A stretch of DNA of 52,531 nt from Lysobacterales bacterium (GTDB lineage Bacteria > Pseudomonadota > Gammaproteobacteria > Xanthomonadales > Marinicellaceae): NCBI GenBank assembly GCA_026988115.1, contig JALSLV010000063.1, positions 1 to 52,531 of the forward strand, in the 5' to 3' direction. The position numbers and the translations under genes are program-made. Shown piece after piece: positions 2,880 through 38,191 of this stretch. Each line of letters opens with the position of its first letter. Position 1 is the first letter of the stretch. The notes beneath the pieces are model-generated. The model worked only from the letters and a program-made list of their open reading frames with translations, was not told the DNA's origin and did not search any database.

Positions 2880-3899
2880 TTGAATAAAAATACTCATAAG
2901 ATATTTGGCATTCTTTTAGTGGCTTTTTTTGCCATTATTGCCACTTTTATAGCCAAAATTCCTCATATCAAAGCTTTAGCCATTAGCCCTTTGGTTATTG
3001 GTATTGTTTTGGGTATTGTTTTTGCCAATACATTGCGCAATAAAATCCCTCAATCGTGGTTGCCTGGTGTTTTATTTTCTGCCAAAACCTTATTGCGTAC
3101 TGCTATCGTTTTTTACGGTTTTCGTATTACCTTTCAACAAATAGCATCCGTAGGAACTGAAGGTTTAATTTTATCAACAGTAATGTTAACGTCCACAATG
3201 CTTATTGGTATTTTTGTTGGTATCAAAGTACTTAAATTAGATAGAGACACTGCTATTTTAGTGGCCTCAGGCAGCGCAGTTTGTGGTGCTGCCGCCGTTT
3301 TAGCCACAGAAGAAGTGCTCAAGTCTGAGGCCCACAAAACCGCCATTGCAGTTGGTACTGTGGTGTTATTTGGTACGATTTCTATGTTTTTATACCCGAT
3401 TCTATTTCGTTCGGGTATTTTGCAGATGGATTTTACTCAATTTGGTCTATATGTTGGCTCAAGTGTTCACGAAGTCGCACAAGTTGTGGCAGCAGGTGGT
3501 GCTATTGATGCGGTTTCTAGTGATACGGCGATCATTGTCAAAATGATTCGGGTGATGATGATTGCACCGATGTTGTTAATCTTAGGATTGTTTTTAAGCA
3601 AATTAGGCAATCACAACTCTAAAGATGCTAAAAAGTTGGTTATTCCTTGGTTTGCCATTTTATTTATTGTTGTGGCAGGCTTTAACTCACTGCATTTATT
3701 ACCCACAAATTTAGTGACAAGTATTAATCACATGGATACATTTTTATTGACCATGGCAATGACCGCTTTAGGGATGGAAACACATTTAGCCAAATTTAAG
3801 CAAGCAGGACTCAAGCCAGTGCTACTGGCTTTGATTTTATTTTCCTGGTTAATTAGCGCAGGTTATTTTTTAACCATGCATATCGACAAATTAATTTAG
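2880..3899 (+). CDS. YeiH-family putative sulfate/organosulfonate exporter (UPF0324)
   Basis: A 339-residue polytopic inner-membrane protein with about nine or ten hydrophobic segments, beginning with IFGILLVAFFAIIATFIAKI. Family landmarks include SGSAVCGAAAVLATE (about 130-144) and YVGSSVHEVAQVVAAG (about 191-206), both conserved in the YeiH group. Substrate is not certain; members are linked to sulfite, sulfate or sulfonate export mainly by context. The reading frame begins at a TTG codon at 2880, 45 bp after serA and just past a REP-like palindrome. No later in-frame ATG precedes the first membrane segment, so TTG is the likely start. It may be read through from serA. No regulator is adjacent. 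Confidence 0.8.
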   Translation: MNKNTHKIFGILLVAFFAIIATFIAKIPHIKALAISPLVIGIVLGIVFANTLRNKIPQSWLPGVLFSAKTLLRTAIVFYGFRITFQQIASVGTEGLILSTVMLTSTMLIGIFVGIKVLKLDRDTAILVASGSAVCGAAAVLATEEVLKSEAHKTAIAVGTVVLFGTISMFLYPILFRSGILQMDFTQFGLYVGSSVHEVAQVVAAGGAIDAVSSDTAIIVKMIRVMMIAPMLLILGLFLSKLGNHNSKDAKKLVIPWFAILFIVVAGFNSLHLLPTNLVTSINHMDTFLLTMAMTALGMETHLAKFKQAGLKPVLLALILFSWLISAGYFLTMHIDKLI

Positions 3900-22432: not shown

Positions 22433-25400
22433 TAATTAACTTTTCAGCTTCGGCTAAATCCACACTCACTAATCGTGATACGCCTGGTTCTCGCATGGTC
22501 ACACCATTGAGTTGGTTGGCAATTTCCATGGTGACTTTATTGTGCGAAACAAATAAAAATTGAACCTTGTCCGACATTTCCTTAACCATTTGCGAGAAAC
22601 GACCAACATTGGCATCATCCAATGGCGCATCCACTTCGTCCAACATACAAAAAGGTGCTGGATTAAGATTGAATATTGAAAATACCATTGAAACGGCTGT
22701 TAGTGCTTTTTCACCGCCCGAAAGCAATTGAATATTGGATATTCGCTTACCTGGAGGTCGTGCCATAATTGACACACCAGTGGTAAGTAAATCATCACTT
22801 GTTAATTCTAGGAAACAATGCCCACCACCAAACAGTTTAGGAAATAACACCTTAATGTTGGTGTTTATCGCCTCAAACGTGTCTTTAAACAGTGTACGGG
22901 TTTCTTTGTCAATTTTATTGATGGCTTTTTCTAGCGTTTCTAACGCTTCAACCAAGTCATCATTTTGCTTATCAAGGTATTTTTTACGTTCACTTTCTTC
23001 TTCATATTCTGAAATAGCGGCTAAATTGACAGGTTCTAATCGCACAATACTGCGTTCTAAACGCTCCATTTCTTCTTGCTTAAAGTCACTGCCTTGCCCT
23101 TCTTGAATCTCAGCAAGCACCACTTCTGGGTCAAAGCCTTTTTCTTGAATTTGTTCCAAATAGCTCTCGGCTTTAAGTTTATTGCTTTGTTGTTCTAATT
23201 TGGCATTTTCAAGTTTTGTGCGTGCGTGCTCTATACTGGCATTGTGGTCACTGCGCTGGCGTTCAAGAATCTCAAGTTCTGCTTGACAGGCTTGAGCTTC
23301 TTGACGTAAGTTGTCGCGTTTTTTTTCAGTTTCAATACGCTTTTCTAGCAACAAATCCAATTCTTTTTGCTTTTCATCTATTGGGTTAGAATCTTGCGAC
23401 AATTGTGCAATCAGATTACTCTTGCGTTGCGACAAACGTTCACAATGCTGTTCTAATCGCTCAATTCCCCTTTGAGAAGATGCCACTTTGCTCTCAAGGG
23501 ATTGCAGCAATAATTTTTGTTGGTAATAAAAACTTGAAGCCTCTGACAAGGTTTTCTTTGCCAGTTCTTTTGTACTAACCAAGTCATGTTGGTTGCGTTC
23601 TTGGGTTTGTTTTTGATCCTCTAACTCTTTGGCAATTTCTATTGCTTCTTCGAGTTGACCTCTTGCTTTTTTGACACTGGCTTCATCAATCTCAATTTGC
23701 ACTTGCAATTGTTCGGATTCCGTATTGATTTGAATATTGCGTTGTTTGATTTGTTCAATCTTATGGCGTTTTGATGAAATATTGGCATTCAGCTCAGAAA
23801 CGCGTCTATGCCCCATATTGACATCCATTTGCAATTGCTCTTTGAGAGCCTCAAGTTGAGAGATGCTTGCCCGCAAGCTTTCAATTTCTTCAACCGTTTC
23901 CTCTATAGTCAGCTCCAATACTTCAATTGACTCATCCAAATCTTTGAGTTCTTTTTGACGCAATAAAAAACCTCCTTCTGTTTCTCCCGCAATGGTCTTA
24001 ATCCAATTTTTACCAACCATTATGCCATCTGCGGTAATGCTGCACTGCCCTTGATTGAGTTTATTTCTATTTTCTAATGCGGAAGACAAATCATCAGAAA
24101 CAAAAATAGAATTAAACCACTCGTAAACCACATCAGGTGCTTTAACCATTTCAGATAAGCTGCCTTTGATGGGATTAATTTGACCCTGTGTATTTTCAGC
24201 AAAGGTTAACTGACCAAATTGCCAATCTGTTAATGCTTTCTCAATTTCATATTTTCCTCGGGGTACCAACGCTTGTAAACGATCACCTAAAGCCGTTTCC
24301 ACTGCTTTTTCCCAACCGCTATTTACTTCTAATAATTGCGATAGTTTTTTGGCATCTTTCAAGTTATTCTCATCAAACCATTGCTGCACTTCTTGATTGT
24401 CATCACTCATTGCGGCTTGTTGCAAGGCTTGCAAGGAACCACGACGCCCTTTGGATTGATGCAATTGCATTTGTTGTTGATTGAGTTTGTCTTGACTGGT
24501 ACGCAGTTCGAGCTTTTTTCTTTCTTGCTTTTCTTTTGTTTCTTCTAACTTTTCAACTTTATCTTCTTGAGCAAAGTTTTGTTCTTCTTGTTTAAATTCT
24601 AATTCTTCGAGTTCTTGCTCTAAGGGTTTGGCTGTGGCATCGGAGGATTCTTTTTGTAACGTTTGAAAACGGTCAGCTTGACGTATCAATTGTTGATCTA
24701 AACTGGCTATTTTGGTTTGTTCAACTTCCACTGTACGGTTTTTTTCAGCAATTTGTGAGACCAAATCATTCCAACTGCTCTGCCAATCCAACAACTCATC
24801 TTCTAGGGTTGAAAAAGCCTCTTGTTTTTCTTTAACCTTAAGTTCTGCTTCTTGCAATTGTGGCTCAACCTTTTTTAGCTCTAGTTGCGCATTATCTAAG
24901 TCAAGCTTATCTTTTTCCAACTGTTCCTGACTGATAGAAAATGCTTCTTCTGCTTCTTGCAACTCTGTTTGCAAACGTTGCGATAAAGATTTAGTGTGGC
25001 TAATAAACTGTTCAATTTTACCAATTTCTGTATTCACCGCATACAATTGTTCTTGCACTTTATTGCCTTTATCTTGCAGCACGTGGTGAGCGATTCGTTG
25101 TTTTTCAATGTGCGTTTCACTGCCTGTTAAACTGGTTTTAATTTCTTCAAGGGCTAAATCAAATTCAGTAACAACTTCTGTGGAACGTGAGGTTCTGTCG
25201 TGCCAATTTTTCCATTTTAGACTTAAAAGTTCGACCTCCATAACTCGAAATTTTTCTTTTAATCCTTTGTATTTTTCAGCATTTTTTGCTTGGCGGTGCA
25301 ATTTATTAATTTGCTTACCAATTTCTGCTCGTAAATCATCCAATCGCTCTAAGTTTTCACGTGTGCGCTTTATTCGACGCTCGGTATCTCTACGGCGTTC

Positions 25401-32744: not shown

Positions 32745-34895
32745 TTATACCTTCAATATAAAGCAATTTTTTATATATTGTATTTCCAATTCTGAGTATT
32801 TGCATTCAACTAAATTATAATCTAAGTTCTGCTCTCTCTTTTGTCCATAATTCTCAATTATATTCTGCTTATTTACTCTTACCTTTACCGGACGGCTATT
32901 ATCAAGTTTTAGTTGTTCATCAATAAAATATTTGTATTTGTAATGATTAACACTGGCTTTTAAATCACTCAGCACGGCAGTCGCGGTAGCAATGCTACCA
33001 GCTCCTTTTCCTTTAAAATTAAACTCGGTGTTGTTGTGGGTTAAAACAATTAAGTTGTTTTCATTATCAGTTTTGGCTAATTCACTGGATAATGGAACAA
33101 GCTCAGGCATGATGGTGATGCTTATGCCTTTATCTGTTTTCGTAAGTGTCGCGATTTGTTTAATCGTGCTGTTTTGGCTTTTGGCAAAGGCAATGTCCTC
33201 AGGTGTTATGTTTTGAATACCGTAATTTTTCACTTCATCAGGATGAACAAGCAAACCAAAGGCATGAGCAGCGAGTATAACGGCTTTGTATTTGGCATCG
33301 AACCCCCCAACATCAGCAAGAGGGTCACTTTCGGCAAATCCTAGGCTTTGTGCTTTTTTTAACGCGTGCGAATAAGAACAGTTGTTTGCAAACATGTGAG
33401 TGAGAATATAATTGCTAGAACCATTGATAATGGCTTTTATGCTTTGGTTTTGTGATTGCTCAAAATACAAATCCAAATTGCGAATAATAGGAATACTGCC
33501 CGCCACTGCTGCTTCGTAGAGAAAAGAAGTTTCCACTAACTGATTCCACAAAATGATTTCAGCAAGATTTTCTGCGACCATTTTTTTATTGGCTGTTATA
33601 AAATTCTTACTCTTATTAATGGCATTTTTAGCTATACGGTAGGATATGTCAGCATCATCTATCACTTCTATAATGGTTTTTATGTTTCTATTATCCGTCA
33701 CTTGTTGGTTGATGGTGATAATTTCATGACCCGCTTTTCTGGCTTTGTACTCGTGCTTAACGACAATGTTATTTAATTGTGGCAAAGTTTTATTACTGGA
33801 TAACAGTTCATAAACACCTTGACCAACACAACCCAAACCATGCATGGCAACTTGTTCTTGTTGCTTTTTATCGGTTTGGTAAAAGTCTGATATTGACTGT
33901 GCAATTTGTACCGTTTCGACTAAAAAACCATCGTGACCAAAGTTTGATTCAATGACATCTAAGCGCGAATTTTCTATGCCATCAACCAATTGTTGTGAGT
34001 CCGCTAGTGGAAATAAAATATCGGTTGAAATGGCAATCACTAAGGTTTTGGCTTTGACTTTCGCCAGTGCTTTTTTAATGCCTCCACGGTTACGCCCGAC
34101 ATCATGGCTGTCCATGGTTTTGGTGATGGCATAATACCCATAGGCATTAAAACGATTAACCAGTTTTTCACCTTGATAACTTTGGTAACTCTCGGCTTTG
34201 CGAATTTTGTCAAAACTGTATTCATCGTTTTGCGTGCTGTTGTAGGCAGTATTATTGCGGTAACTCAATAAAGCAATACTGCGTGCCGCTTTGAGTCCTG
34301 CTCGGGCGGAGTTTGGACTTTTTTCTCCCCAGGTTTTATCGGCATGAATGGCGAGTCTTTGCGATTGATTAAAAGCAGCCACCCATGGCGAAATAACGGC
34401 TGAAGACCCCAACAAAACGAGATTATCGCAAATTTCTGGTTCGGTGATTGCCCACTCGACCGCCTGATGACCACCAACCGAGCCACCAATTATGGTGTGG
34501 ATATGTTTGATTCTTAAATGTTTTCTCAGTTCAATAAAAGCCTTGATATTATCTCGGATACTGACCACGGGAAATTTGTCGTAGCGTTTGTCTTCATCGC
34601 AATTTAGTGGCGATGTGGATCCATAAGCCGAGCCAATAATATTAGCACACACAATAAAATAATCATCAGGATTAAATAAGTCATTAGGTCCAACCAAACC
34701 CGGCCACCAATCTTTAACATTGGCATCAGCGGTCAATGCATGACAAACCCAAATAATATTGGATTCGTCTGCATTTTTTTGACCATAAGTGCTGTAACTA
34801 ATGGTTATATCCGTCAAGAAATCTCCACTCTCAAGAGGAAACTTGCCTTTCAAGTCAAACTGCGATTCTTGGCTGTGTGGTGCACTCCTATTCAT
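32745..34895 (-). CDS. Fusion of homoserine O-acyltransferase (MetX) and homoserine dehydrogenase
   Basis: One open frame holds two methionine enzymes. Residues about 1-350 are a MetX-type alpha/beta hydrolase with the nucleophile elbow TIIGGSVGGHQAVEW, an Asp in ISTDILFPLADSQQ and a His in FGHDGFLVE. The rest is homoserine dehydrogenase: NAD(P) motif HGLGCVGQGVYELL, TANKKMVAENL, AGSIPIIRN, GSSNYILTHMF and SDPLADVGGFDAKYK. Fused, they could pass homoserine straight to acylation. No aspartokinase part is present. I prefer ATG 34895, one base after the metY stop (TAAtATG), which implies translational coupling and gives 716 residues; the frame is open to 34946. Acetyl versus succinyl donor cannot be told. 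Confidence 0.88.
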   Translation of the reverse strand: MNRSAPHSQESQFDLKGKFPLESGDFLTDITISYSTYGQKNADESNIIWVCHALTADANVKDWWPGLVGPNDLFNPDDYFIVCANIIGSAYGSTSPLNCDEDKRYDKFPVVSIRDNIKAFIELRKHLRIKHIHTIIGGSVGGHQAVEWAITEPEICDNLVLLGSSAVISPWVAAFNQSQRLAIHADKTWGEKSPNSARAGLKAARSIALLSYRNNTAYNSTQNDEYSFDKIRKAESYQSYQGEKLVNRFNAYGYYAITKTMDSHDVGRNRGGIKKALAKVKAKTLVIAISTDILFPLADSQQLVDGIENSRLDVIESNFGHDGFLVETVQIAQSISDFYQTDKKQQEQVAMHGLGCVGQGVYELLSSNKTLPQLNNIVVKHEYKARKAGHEIITINQQVTDNRNIKTIIEVIDDADISYRIAKNAINKSKNFITANKKMVAENLAEIILWNQLVETSFLYEAAVAGSIPIIRNLDLYFEQSQNQSIKAIINGSSNYILTHMFANNCSYSHALKKAQSLGFAESDPLADVGGFDAKYKAVILAAHAFGLLVHPDEVKNYGIQNITPEDIAFAKSQNSTIKQIATLTKTDKGISITIMPELVPLSSELAKTDNENNLIVLTHNNTEFNFKGKGAGSIATATAVLSDLKASVNHYKYKYFIDEQLKLDNSRPVKVRVNKQNIIENYGQKREQNLDYNLVECKYSELEIQYIKNCFILKV

Positions 34896-34896
34896 A

Positions 34897-36336
<1,440 letters not shown>

Positions 36337-36337
36337 A

Positions 36338-36448
36338 CTATTGCATTGTTGGCATGCACATACACATGCAACATGATTGCATTAAGCAAGACTGAAGTAT
36401 TTGAGTTGAATTGAAATTTTGATTTGTAGAAATTGTTTCGTTTTTCAT
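36338..36448 (-). CDS. Cys/Met-rich leader peptide of the met operon
   Basis: A 36-codon ORF with ATG at 36448 and TAG at 36338-36340. It begins MKNETISTNQNF and ends SCLMQSCCMCMCMPTMQ. The last 16 codons hold five Cys and five Met, far above chance, and these are the amino acids made or used by the downstream pathway. AAAGAGAG about 5 bases before the ATG is a usable ribosome binding site and overlaps the 3' strand of the riboswitch P1 stem. It looks like an attenuator peptide in the style of trp or his leaders: stalling at Cys/Met codons would change the fold of the next hairpins. A small metal-binding peptide is the alternative. Function is inferred. Confidence 0.6.
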   Translation of the reverse strand: MKNETISTNQNFNSTQILQSCLMQSCCMCMCMPTMQ

Positions 36449-36456
36449 AATGCTCT

Positions 36457-36566
36457 CTTTATATTCACCAGTATTGGTTCAGGATTTGGCACTATCGAGA
36501 AAAAGGATTTTTTATCGAACTTGCCTGAGGGTCATCGAGCCTGTCTCTTACCTCATCGTTATAAAG
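36457..36566 (-). ncRNA. S-box (SAM-I) riboswitch ahead of metY
   Basis: The minus strand shows the full SAM-I plan in order. P1 5' is CTTTATA (36560-36566). P2 is TGAGG/CCTCA with a kink-turn-like interior and GGCTCGATGAC (36526-36555). Next come AGGCAAG, P3 as TCGATAAAAAATCC...TTTTTCTCGA, and the hallmark AGTGCCAAATCC joining strand. P4 is ACCAATACTGGT, then GAA and P1 3' TATAAAG (36457-36463). It matches the B. subtilis yitJ layout as I recall it. SAM binding should stabilise P1. Because AAAGAGAG at the P1 3' side is also the likely ribosome binding site of the leader ORF, SAM may block leader translation. P1 is short (7 bp). Confidence 0.8.
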
Positions 36567-36814
36567 TATAAGTTTTTAAAACGGTGTTTTATTAACCTAT
36601 GATTTGAAATTTAACAGTAAAAAAATAAAAAGCAACTGAAATTTACAAAAATATTAAAAATAAACAAATTCTCTATTAGAGAGAACCTAAAATTCCGAAC
36701 ACCATTTTTTTAGTTGCTGGCTCAAACTATGTTTATGACAAAGAACACACTTGCCTATTGGGCTAGAATAATTTAAAGTAATTGCCTATTAAAGTGCTTA
36801 ACCAATAGTCTAAC
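36567..36814. other. Divergent AT-rich spacer with a nested inverted repeat
   Basis: About 250 bases without a gene between the met leader and the beta-helix gene. AGCAACT (36631-36637) and AGTTGCT (36712-36718) enclose a small perfect hairpin TTCTCTattagAGAGAA (36669-36685). On the minus strand the outer stem is followed by TTTTTATTTTTTT, so it could end a short RNA. TTGCCTATT occurs twice 31 bases apart (36751 and 36782), about three helical turns, ahead of the plus-strand gene. Promoters for both directions must lie here, but I see no strong consensus. Confidence 0.35.
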
Positions 36815-38191
36815 ATGAAAATCAAACGCAGAACTTTTTTAAAAAATGCTTGCCTCAGTGCGATTGGTTTGCCTTTAAGTTTGTCTGCTTATGCGCGCAA
36901 CAAACAAGGAACGACTAACCTCTATGTTTCTATTATTGATGGCAATGATAATAATCCGGGAACTTTGACACAACCATTTAAAACCATTCAAAAAGCTGTA
37001 AATATTGTTCAAGCAGGACAAAACATCCTCATAAAATCTGGTGTTTATAATGAACGTATTGTATTAAATATCGCCGCAACACAACAACTACCCATTAACA
37101 TTGCACCCTTTGCTAATGATGTGGTTATTATTGATGGCACGGGAATTACGTGGTTTCCAGCAAGTTCAACCACACCATTTAATGGTTTATTTGATTTATT
37201 TAACTGTGCTTATATCACTGTTTCGGGTTTAACAATCATTCATTCCACTTATGCTGGTTTTTTTATGGAAGATTGCACTAATATCACTATCCAAAATTGC
37301 CAAACCGACGATACCGTTTCCAGTGGAATTGGCGTTTGGACCTCAAGAAACATCACCATCAATAACAACCGAGTGCATTTGGCTTGCAACGGCGGTGGAG
37401 AAGAATGCATCACCATTGCAACCAGTAGTTTTTGTGAAGTAAAAAATAACGAAGTATTAAACAATGGCAGCAATGGAATACTTGGTGGTGAAGGAATTGA
37501 TGCAAAACAAGGCTCTCACCACATCATGATTCACCACAACCACATCCATCACTTAAATTCTCGTTTGGGCATTTACGCCGATGCCTACGATACTTTTACC
37601 CATGACATTGAGATTTTCAACAACCGTGTACACGATTGCAGCGAAAGTGGTATAGCAGTGGCAAGTGAAGGCGGTGGCTTACTGCAAAACGTCAAAATTT
37701 ACAACAACATCGTTTATAACAATCTCTATGGCGGCATTGAAATTGGTGGCTGGACGACAGTTGCAGGCACAACAGTGACGCCAATTGATAACGTAACAAT
37801 CATCAACAACAGTTTGCACAACAATGGTGATGGCATTAATTTTGATAATGTCCATGCCCAAAATATTGTTGCACGCAATAACATCTGCTCTCAAAGCAAC
37901 GGATTGGAGCTAGTGGTTGGCGCAACACCTTTGGCTCAAATTACCATTGAAAACAACTTAATAGACGGTAACACACAACAAACAGGCTCATCCGCCGTTG
38001 TTGCCAGCGCTGGTTTTGTGGATGCGCTTAATCAAGACTTTCACCTACAAAGTAGCTCATCAGCTATTAATGCGGGATTGTTTAATTTAGCTCCAGTTAA
38101 AGATTACGATGGCAATATTCGTGATGCTCAACCCGATATTGGGGCTTTTGAGTTTTTAGATGTGATTTTTAAACACGGTTTTGAAATTTAG
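36815..38191 (+). CDS. Tat-exported right-handed parallel beta-helix protein
   Basis: A 458-residue protein with a twin-arginine signal (MKIKRRTFLKNACLSAIGLP). The body is a pectate-lyase-like beta-helix: GNDNNPGTLTQPFKTIQKAV at the start, then short repeats such as ITIQNCQTDD, ITINNNRVHL, CEVKNNEVLNNG, IMIHHNHIHHL, IEIFNNRVHDC, VKIYNNIVYNN and VTIINNSLHNNG. It closes with the DYDGNIRDAQPDIGAFEF box common after such helices. The last residues DVIFKHGFEI form a short motif (IFxxGFE) that recurs in the 46608-50906 protein. Likely a polysaccharide lyase, epimerase or binding protein; catalytic residues cannot be assigned. Confidence 0.82.
   Translation: MKIKRRTFLKNACLSAIGLPLSLSAYARNKQGTTNLYVSIIDGNDNNPGTLTQPFKTIQKAVNIVQAGQNILIKSGVYNERIVLNIAATQQLPINIAPFANDVVIIDGTGITWFPASSTTPFNGLFDLFNCAYITVSGLTIIHSTYAGFFMEDCTNITIQNCQTDDTVSSGIGVWTSRNITINNNRVHLACNGGGEECITIATSSFCEVKNNEVLNNGSNGILGGEGIDAKQGSHHIMIHHNHIHHLNSRLGIYADAYDTFTHDIEIFNNRVHDCSESGIAVASEGGGLLQNVKIYNNIVYNNLYGGIEIGGWTTVAGTTVTPIDNVTIINNSLHNNGDGINFDNVHAQNIVARNNICSQSNGLELVVGATPLAQITIENNLIDGNTQQTGSSAVVASAGFVDALNQDFHLQSSSSAINAGLFNLAPVKDYDGNIRDAQPDIGAFEFLDVIFKHGFEI

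Follow-up and report, generated by a model that had tools for sequence, protein, structure and literature searches.

Within a stretch of 52,531 nucleotides of DNA from a bacterium of the order Lysobacterales (contig JALSLV010000063.1), analyzed at its full length and hereafter called the window, a SAM-I (S-box) riboswitch aptamer is followed directly by a short open reading frame (ORF) rich in cysteine and methionine codons, and then by metY. The locus raises the question of what the aptamer acts on: metY itself, or the ORF that stands between the two. A preliminary description of the sequence had suggested that such an operon would read both SAM and charged tRNA-Cys/tRNA-Met. In the reading favored here, to which a probability of about 0.6 is assigned, leader control would proceed in two steps, with SAM gating the leader ORF and its Cys/Met codons then setting metY expression, so that one leader would read both SAM and charged tRNA as suggested earlier. 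The chances are judged to be about even for the wider claim, i.e., that SAM gates the entry of ribosomes to a sensor ORF on which the ribosome reads tRNA-Cys/tRNA-Met charging, and that this is a Bacteroidota device, tied to one SAM-I subclass, which was moved whole into a Lysobacterales genus.

The leader region of metY in the window

Rfam analysis of the window at the gathering threshold gave a single match, the SAM-I aptamer at 36567-36456 (RF00162; 56.0 bits, gathering score 44.4, E 2.5e-10), which covered model positions 1-108 of 108 and was also the only RF00162 match in the whole genome. The aptamer, the leader ORF, metY, and metX-hom follow one another in this order on the minus strand (Table 1), the aptamer lying upstream of and co-directional with genes of the Met/SAM pathway. 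The leader ORF starts with ATG and comprises 36 codons, MKNETISTNQNFNSTQILQSCLMQSCCMCMCMPTMQ, with Cys or Met at 10 of the last 16; an additional Cys and Met lie outside the terminal run at codons 21 and 23. When the 220 nt downstream of the aptamer were shuffled 3000 times with dinucleotides preserved, no ATG ORF with at least six Cys/Met among its last 18 codons arose, the observed number being 10. The leader ATG is placed 7 nt past the Rfam end of the aptamer, and the purine-rich AAAGAGAG on its 5' side overlaps the 3' strand of P1; judged by sequence, the ribosome binding site adjoining P1 is that of the leader ORF and not that of metY. The preliminary description was thus borne out as to an aptamer with all core elements, which the Rfam model recognizes over its full length and above the gathering score, the 36-codon ORF with ten Cys or Met codons among the last 16, and a leader ribosome binding site touching the P1 3' strand. 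Its placing of the ORF directly after the aptamer also stood, the distance given there as nine bases after P1 being 7 nt from the Rfam end.

Table 1. Features of the metY leader region and the genes that follow it, by position in the window.
Feature	Position	Strand	Basis
SAM-I (S-box) riboswitch aptamer, weak TTTATA/TATAAA P1 subclass	36456..36567	minus	Rfam RF00162, alignment, pattern
P1 3' strand running into the purine-rich ribosome-binding stretch of the leader ORF, TATAAAGAGAGCATT	36449..36463	minus	sequence; conserved start-codon place
Leader ORF, 36 codons and stop	36338..36448	minus	ORF list; kept in 6/6 genus members with metY
Cys/Met codon run, codons 26-35 (CCMCMCMPTM)	36344..36373	minus	sequence; enrichment test
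Region 1, leader stop codon with the bases after it, partner of region 2	36326..36344	minus	minimum-energy folds
Region 2, GATTTTCAGGC(C/G)ATTGC, pairs with region 1 or 3	36286..36302	minus	alignment, folds
Region 3, GTCTGAATCTC, partner of region 2 or, through TCTC, of the metY ribosome binding site	36231..36241	minus	alignment, folds
metY ribosome binding site (AGGAGA)	36208..36213	minus	sequence
metY, O-acetylhomoserine sulfhydrylase	34897..36201	minus	TIGR01326, 663.7 bits, cut-off 495.1
metX-hom fusion (homoserine O-acetyltransferase and homoserine dehydrogenase)	32745..34946	minus	TIGR01392, NF004976

The search for terminator-like sites within 36150-36830 found none, which rules out classical intrinsic termination in the window, and neither a terminator nor a metY-sequestering platform was found for the aptamer. 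The junction of the P1 3' strand with the ribosome-binding stretch of the leader is, from its sequence, the probable control point.

In the metX-hom fusion, residues 34-356 matched TIGR01392 at 321.2 bits (below the cut-off of 500) and residues 363-675 matched NF004976 at 270.0 bits (cut-off 205); the start given in the ORF list overlaps metY, and the true start may be further in. No serine acetyltransferase (CysE) above the curated cut-off was found in the genome of the window (best score 31.4 bits, cut-off 210.65). The genome encodes a cystathionine beta-synthase-like protein (443.3 bits, below the cut-off of 510.25), which scored 338.6 with the cysteine synthase A model (cut-off 387), and a second PLP enzyme of the family that is a methionine gamma-lyase by score (560.7, cut-off 549.7). 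The lack of a CysE match and the presence of the cystathionine beta-synthase-like protein suggest that cysteine is made from homocysteine, the likeness of this protein to cysteine synthase A keeping the suggestion from being firm. The homocysteine formed by MetY probably feeds both methionine and cysteine here. If cysteine is made in this way, MetY serves both amino acids, so that a leader with both kinds of codon fits, and scarcity of either Cys or Met should raise expression. The divergent neighbor of the cassette, at 36815-38191 on the plus strand, appeared by eye to encode a repeat protein that looks secreted, starts with a twin-arginine-like stretch, and is probably a parallel beta-helix.

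Conservation of the layout and its SAM-I subclass

Eleven genomes of the genus, including that of the window, were compared. A metY ortholog at 83% identity or more was present in six of them: G000, G008, G006, G002, G005, and G004 (over two contigs). In all six, the ORF starts 7-9 bases past the aptamer end and closes in or near a Cys/Met run, the ends being ...SCCMCMCMPTMQ, ...MSMCCCMCMPKMQ, ...SCCMCMRMLKNAIV, ...ICVSMYCSMCMSNMQ, ...TSCTCCMCMCRMP, and ...SCCPMAMCCMCMPRMQ. The N-terminal parts of the leaders showed much divergence by eye, and a one-base difference after the run in G006 alters the final residues and moves the stop (by eye). The leader ORF of G008 (contig L031), where the aptamer is interrupted by Ns, contains a dispersed repeat and has 92 residues, with the frame still open into the run. 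This repeat (L031, 1425-1585) had matches in all five genus genomes searched, 20 of them in G008. An insert of about 80 bases was seen within the aptamer of G004 (L028, 660-850, minus), which still scored 48.1 bits; a search of five genus genomes gave no second copy of the insert. G010 has the same aptamer type and ORF start, but before metX-hom, and its ORF ends in MPMRMLFLAC, the Cys run being gone. Neither this metY nor an aptamer match was found in G001, G003, G007, and G009. Two further SAM-I sites of the genus, L112 (G002:C304, aptamer 719-848, minus) and L111 (G010:C75, aptamer 22846-22963, minus), showed no Cys/Met leader by eye; they are followed by genes for YeeE/YedE-like membrane proteins, which we take to be thiosulfate transporters.

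For comparison beyond the genus, the best 80 of at least 547 MetY relatives in a collection of named genomes were taken, two of them from this genus and the rest nearly all from Bacteroidota. Rfam placed SAM-I upstream of metY in 18/18 loci submitted from these best 80 of at least 547, and a model built here did so in 79 of the 80, the remaining locus (L031) having Ns in the aptamer and being left unscored. A leader over the run threshold (an ORF starting near the aptamer end, with at least four Cys/Met in its last 18 codons) is carried by 62 of the 79 aptamer-bearing loci from the best 80 of at least 547, e.g., MKNFISNIAGNTLSRLRSIHSTNFQIICCCMCAMCCCACCCC. Because the layout is present in so many metY loci, it is not a local oddity, and the possibility of a purely local curiosity was ruled out. 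Under a stricter rule (ATG within 40 nt of the aptamer, 8-60 codons), leaders were found at 63 of 80 loci (those scored from the best 80 of at least 547 relatives, with the window added), as against a mean of 0.62 and a maximum of 3 in 50 shuffled sets and 0/80 on the reverse strand. The last 16 codons of the 63 leaders from this set (best 80 of at least 547) comprise 35.2% Cys and 9.6% Met, compared with 0.6% and 1.7% in the remainder, and Cys or Met occurs in the last two codons of 57 of the 63. In other respects the leaders differ: their lengths are 14 to 92 residues, Cys is variably spaced, Met replaces Cys, and the rest of the peptide is divergent. The run is nearly pure Cys in many Bacteroidota leaders. 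Changes fell 11, 13, and 18 times at codon positions 1, 2, and 3, which shows little bias in the seven usable pairs.

The layout is real and conserved, and it is wider than the preliminary description had taken it to be. As to the conservation in relatives on which that description turned, the start and the run are kept in all six genus genomes with a metY ortholog, whereas the run is nearly gone in G010 and lies under the threshold in 17 of the 79 aptamer loci (best 80 of at least 547); 14 of these 17 belong to Algoriphagus and near relatives, in which the start codon is kept.

The position of the start codon is nearly fixed. Among the 79 loci from the best 80 of at least 547, an ATG lies 5-13 nt past the aptamer in 73, comprising 59 of the 62 with a run and 14 of the 17 without, where shuffling gave an expectation of 1.69 of 17; the 14 run-less loci are Algoriphagus and kin, not independent cases, and their ORFs differ. 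The spacing is 7 nt in the window and 9 nt in most relatives. Two loci, L054 and L069 (aptamer end at 3818), have the leader ATG inside the P1 3' strand, at an offset of -7, a placement that would make control of the leader start more direct. At other SAM-I types, an ATG at 5-13 nt was seen in 1/20 loci of the order, 0/4 of the sister genus, and 9/30 of a phylum sample. The aptamers concerned share the motif TTTATA in the first P1 strand, which was found in 61 of the 62 loci with a run (the exception being L110) and in 14 of the 17 without (best 80 of at least 547 in both cases); one of the remaining three, L098, is truncated on the 5' side. Since the start codon is tied to the aptamer type even where the run is missing, the aptamer is thought to act on the leader ORF, and this is the main reason for that view. 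A start codon kept with the aptamer is as expected if P1 controls initiation at the leader.

The link between subclass and leader was also seen in samples drawn by genome. SAM-I sites were collected from 148 genomes drawn over the phylum; the 30 best-scoring loci were followed by 60 more, every second among the matches listed, with G061 (already seen) passed over. None of the 30 best-scoring loci has a leader, and none is of the TTTATA type. In the 60 further sites among the matches listed, a leader with ATG is present at three of the four TTTATA-type sites, the fourth having a GTG start, and at 0 of the 56 others; two of these 56 qualified under a relaxed rule that admits any start codon, -12 to 129 nt, and at most 90 codons (L188 and L215, with non-ATG starts 63-79 nt away). 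The strict TTTATA-type pattern occurred in 35/395 genomes of the class of Pseudochryseolinea, and 19 of 30 pattern-found loci that were fetched have a leader by the loose rule, one of them doubtful (L261), and 11 are without a run. Six Bacteroidota genomes gave 15 SAM-I matches, of which 12 were fetched and 7 have a leader; these loci and the pattern-found class loci partly repeat genomes of the best-80 MetY set. All seven leader sites are of the TTTATA type; five precede metY, and the others an OsmC-like or a ferredoxin-like gene (named by eye). The five leaderless sites precede metH. Across all these samples, metH SAM-I sites showed no leader (0/18).

The relatives of the window's own order gave a different result. 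Twenty SAM-I loci fetched from the order but not from the genus, and four from the sister genus, showed neither a leader nor a TTTATA-type P1, their aptamers being of another type, and inheritance within Lysobacterales was thus rejected. The TTTATA pattern was present in 1/369 genomes of the class, that of the window, with no other member of the genus in that draw. A maximum-likelihood tree of 40 MetY rows, which left out L191, nested the genus within Cytophagales, next to L037 and L039 (98/98), and far from the MetY of the sister genus. Because MetY groups with Cytophagales and the leader and TTTATA-type P1 are absent from the fetched loci of the order outside the genus, the whole cassette was probably acquired from Bacteroidota by horizontal transfer.

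Proposed leader control and its alternatives

In the two-step control proposed here, the output of the aptamer would be the leader ORF, whose ribosome landing site begins in the 3' strand of a weak P1. With SAM bound, P1 would be closed and the leader left untranslated; at low SAM, the leader would be translated. The final Cys/Met codons would then time the ribosome, which would be held at the run when charged tRNA-Cys or tRNA-Met is scarce, or else reach the stop codon, and its position would choose between a hairpin of regions 1 and 2 (1:2) and one of regions 2 and 3 (2:3), and so whether metY and metX-hom are expressed. High expression would be expected when SAM is low and Cys or Met is scarce, as the homocysteine made by MetY probably feeds both amino acids. 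The last step is likely to be Rho-dependent or translational control of metY. As no intrinsic terminator was found, the leader was not classed as a classical transcriptional attenuator; among relatives in the best 80 of at least 547, 7/62 have a terminator-like site downstream of the leader (shuffle mean 1.7, maximum 4).

Folding of the spacer between the leader and the next gene supports a hairpin switch within the genus. Six of seven genus spacers fold better than shuffles (z -2.7 to -3.8; G005, -1.16) and have mutually exclusive hairpins in their computed folds, and region 2 varies hardly at all among the five genus members aligned. The region 2 motif is missing from G005, which folds weakly and has a weaker analogue of both hairpins. 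Folds computed from a ribosome at the stop codon gave the pairing 2:3 in six of the seven, and those from a ribosome at the first Cys pair, which is present in five of the seven, gave 1:2 in G000, G006, G004, and G008. In G000, G004, and G008, part of the metY ribosome binding site is paired whichever hairpin forms; in G006 this is so only with 1:2. The spacers of Bacteroidota show moderate structure (mean z -1.24; coding control, -0.15). The support is confined to the genus because pairing of the last Cys codons with post-stop bases reached the best 5% at only 9/62 loci (3.1 expected; control stretch 4/60; best 80 of at least 547), and no RNAalifold consensus structure was found across 25 Bacteroidota leaders. 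A recurring motif (TAGC..CTGCCGAGTGACGGGTATGGTTACGGCTA) was seen about 30-80 nt past the leader stop in many of these 25 aligned loci and is possibly part of a structured element.

The two sensors could instead be independent controls in series, the aptamer acting on metY over a long range or via Rho and the Cys/Met leader being a separate attenuator next to it. The run is lost while the aptamer stays in 17/79 loci (best 80 of at least 547), and other SAM-I types serve genes without any such leader, as this reading would have it. It is nevertheless somewhat unlikely, for the ATG is kept in place in 14 of those 17 loci (1.69 expected; same best 80 of at least 547), close relatives though they are, and the TTTATA subclass and the leader go together in 61 of the 62 loci with a run from that set. 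An arrangement of the same anatomy with the opposite sign, in which scarce charged tRNA-Cys would lower metY expression and spare sulfide for cysteine synthesis, would suit the nearly pure Cys runs of many Bacteroidota leaders. The folds give no polarity either, as a ribosome at the stop codon favors 2:3 and a stall at the first Cys pair favors 1:2, neither of them clearly productive. This sign is considered unlikely in view of the Met codons that the genus leaders also hold and of the missing CysE match and the cystathionine beta-synthase-like protein, which suggest, though not firmly, that cysteine comes from homocysteine.

Two other explanations differ from the two-step control in what the ORF is for. 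The Cys-rich peptide may itself be the sensor or product, as a nascent chain or a small thiol protein that responds to metal, sulfide, or the redox state; metal binding is conceivable for such dense Cys clusters, and CruR is a precedent for an upstream ORF with a Cys motif (PMC9426467, from the part of the article available). A peptide of 14 to 92 residues with variable Cys spacing, Met in place of Cys, and a divergent remainder makes this improbable, as does the fact that the downstream genes that could be named are mostly Met/Cys genes. That the ORF is untranslated, its TGT/TGC repeats being kept as RNA pairing elements, would account for Cys codon repeats that pair downstream beyond shuffles (9/62, 3.1 expected; best 80 of at least 547), but it is very improbable given the near-fixed ATG, the Cys or Met in the last two codons of 57/63 leaders and the 0/80 found on the reverse strand (both best 80 of at least 547), and the frame kept across the inserted repeat of G008. 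Translation of the ORF and stalling at its run, as in the two-step control, are predicted here from the sequence.

Relation to known systems

Ribosome-mediated attenuators of the trp/his type are characterized by codons for the end product and by exclusive hairpins overlapping the end of the leader ORF. The present leader differs from them in that no intrinsic terminator was found and the entry of the ribosome itself appears to be gated by an aptamer. The aptamer shares sequence and fold with the SAM-I family (RF00162) and, like it, heads a methionine operon. As described in the accessible text of Barrick and Breaker (2007; PMC2258182), SAM-I acts through a terminator or through the ribosome binding site of the gene under control, whereas the nearest start here is that of the leader ORF. 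In the same part of that article, aptamers with a start codon within 15 nt are taken to control translation initiation directly, and in SAM-I the 3' side of P1 can contain the binding site (PMC2258182).

Leaders with two sensors have been described. The Salmonella mgtA leader likewise combines a riboswitch, sensing Mg2+, with a codon-biased ORF, the Pro-codon mgtL (PMC6460261, as far as its text was available), but it has another ligand and other codons, and here a complete, separate SAM-I element stands directly before the ORF. The metE leader of Bacillus clausii carries SAM-I and AdoCbl riboswitches in tandem (PMC2258182, section available); its second sensor is also an aptamer, while here it is a predicted translated ORF.

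Cys-run leader ORFs were predicted earlier in Actinobacteria (PMC1262725), a candidate upstream ORF with Cys codons was noted before cysA2 (PMC4633059), and mycobacterial polycysteine leader ORFs are reported to respond to cysteine (Canestrari, 2020, as cited in PMC9094748). The mycobacterial ORFs likewise are short, precede sulfur genes, and have a Cys run close to the stop codon, with no clear terminator, but they belong to another phylum and to leaderless transcripts, and the accessible portions mention no riboswitch. The ORF in the window would not be leaderless if transcribed with the aptamer, as the conserved strand and place of the aptamer imply. The upstream ORF uORFC-8-2 before cysS of Rhodobacterales (PMC8632094) similarly has tandem Cys codons and two stems; it has two Cys codons and a terminator-like U run, and the text available mentions no aptamer. 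In the accessible portions of the respective articles, the CXXC motif of the nascent CruR chain senses copper (PMC9426467), leader-peptide attenuation before amino acid operons of Flavobacterium is mentioned in general terms (PMC9723704), and small ORFs reminiscent of leader peptides are reported for Bacteroides (PMC7366714). No description of a SAM riboswitch with a Cys/Met leader was found in the open-licence literature, as far as its text was accessible (most subscription papers and all preprints lie outside it). The preliminary description, which knew of no described case in this group, agrees with that result, but the group was drawn too narrowly, the layout being widespread in Bacteroidota.

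If the two-step control is correct, the leader would be a natural logic gate in a single RNA, in which the aptamer reads the end-product cofactor and the ribosome reads the amino acid supply, i.e., a hierarchical two-input gate at the step from sulfide to homocysteine that was not found at metH. The layout offers a candidate expression platform for one SAM-I subclass and opens to test the idea that a riboswitch can work through the gating of a sensor ORF. From it, many leader ORFs rich in Cys are also to be expected in Bacteroidota. At L157 (G066:C40:16345-16442), a TTTATA-type SAM-I aptamer is followed by a leader with eight Cys at its end, and the gene after it is ferredoxin-like (by eye) instead of metY.
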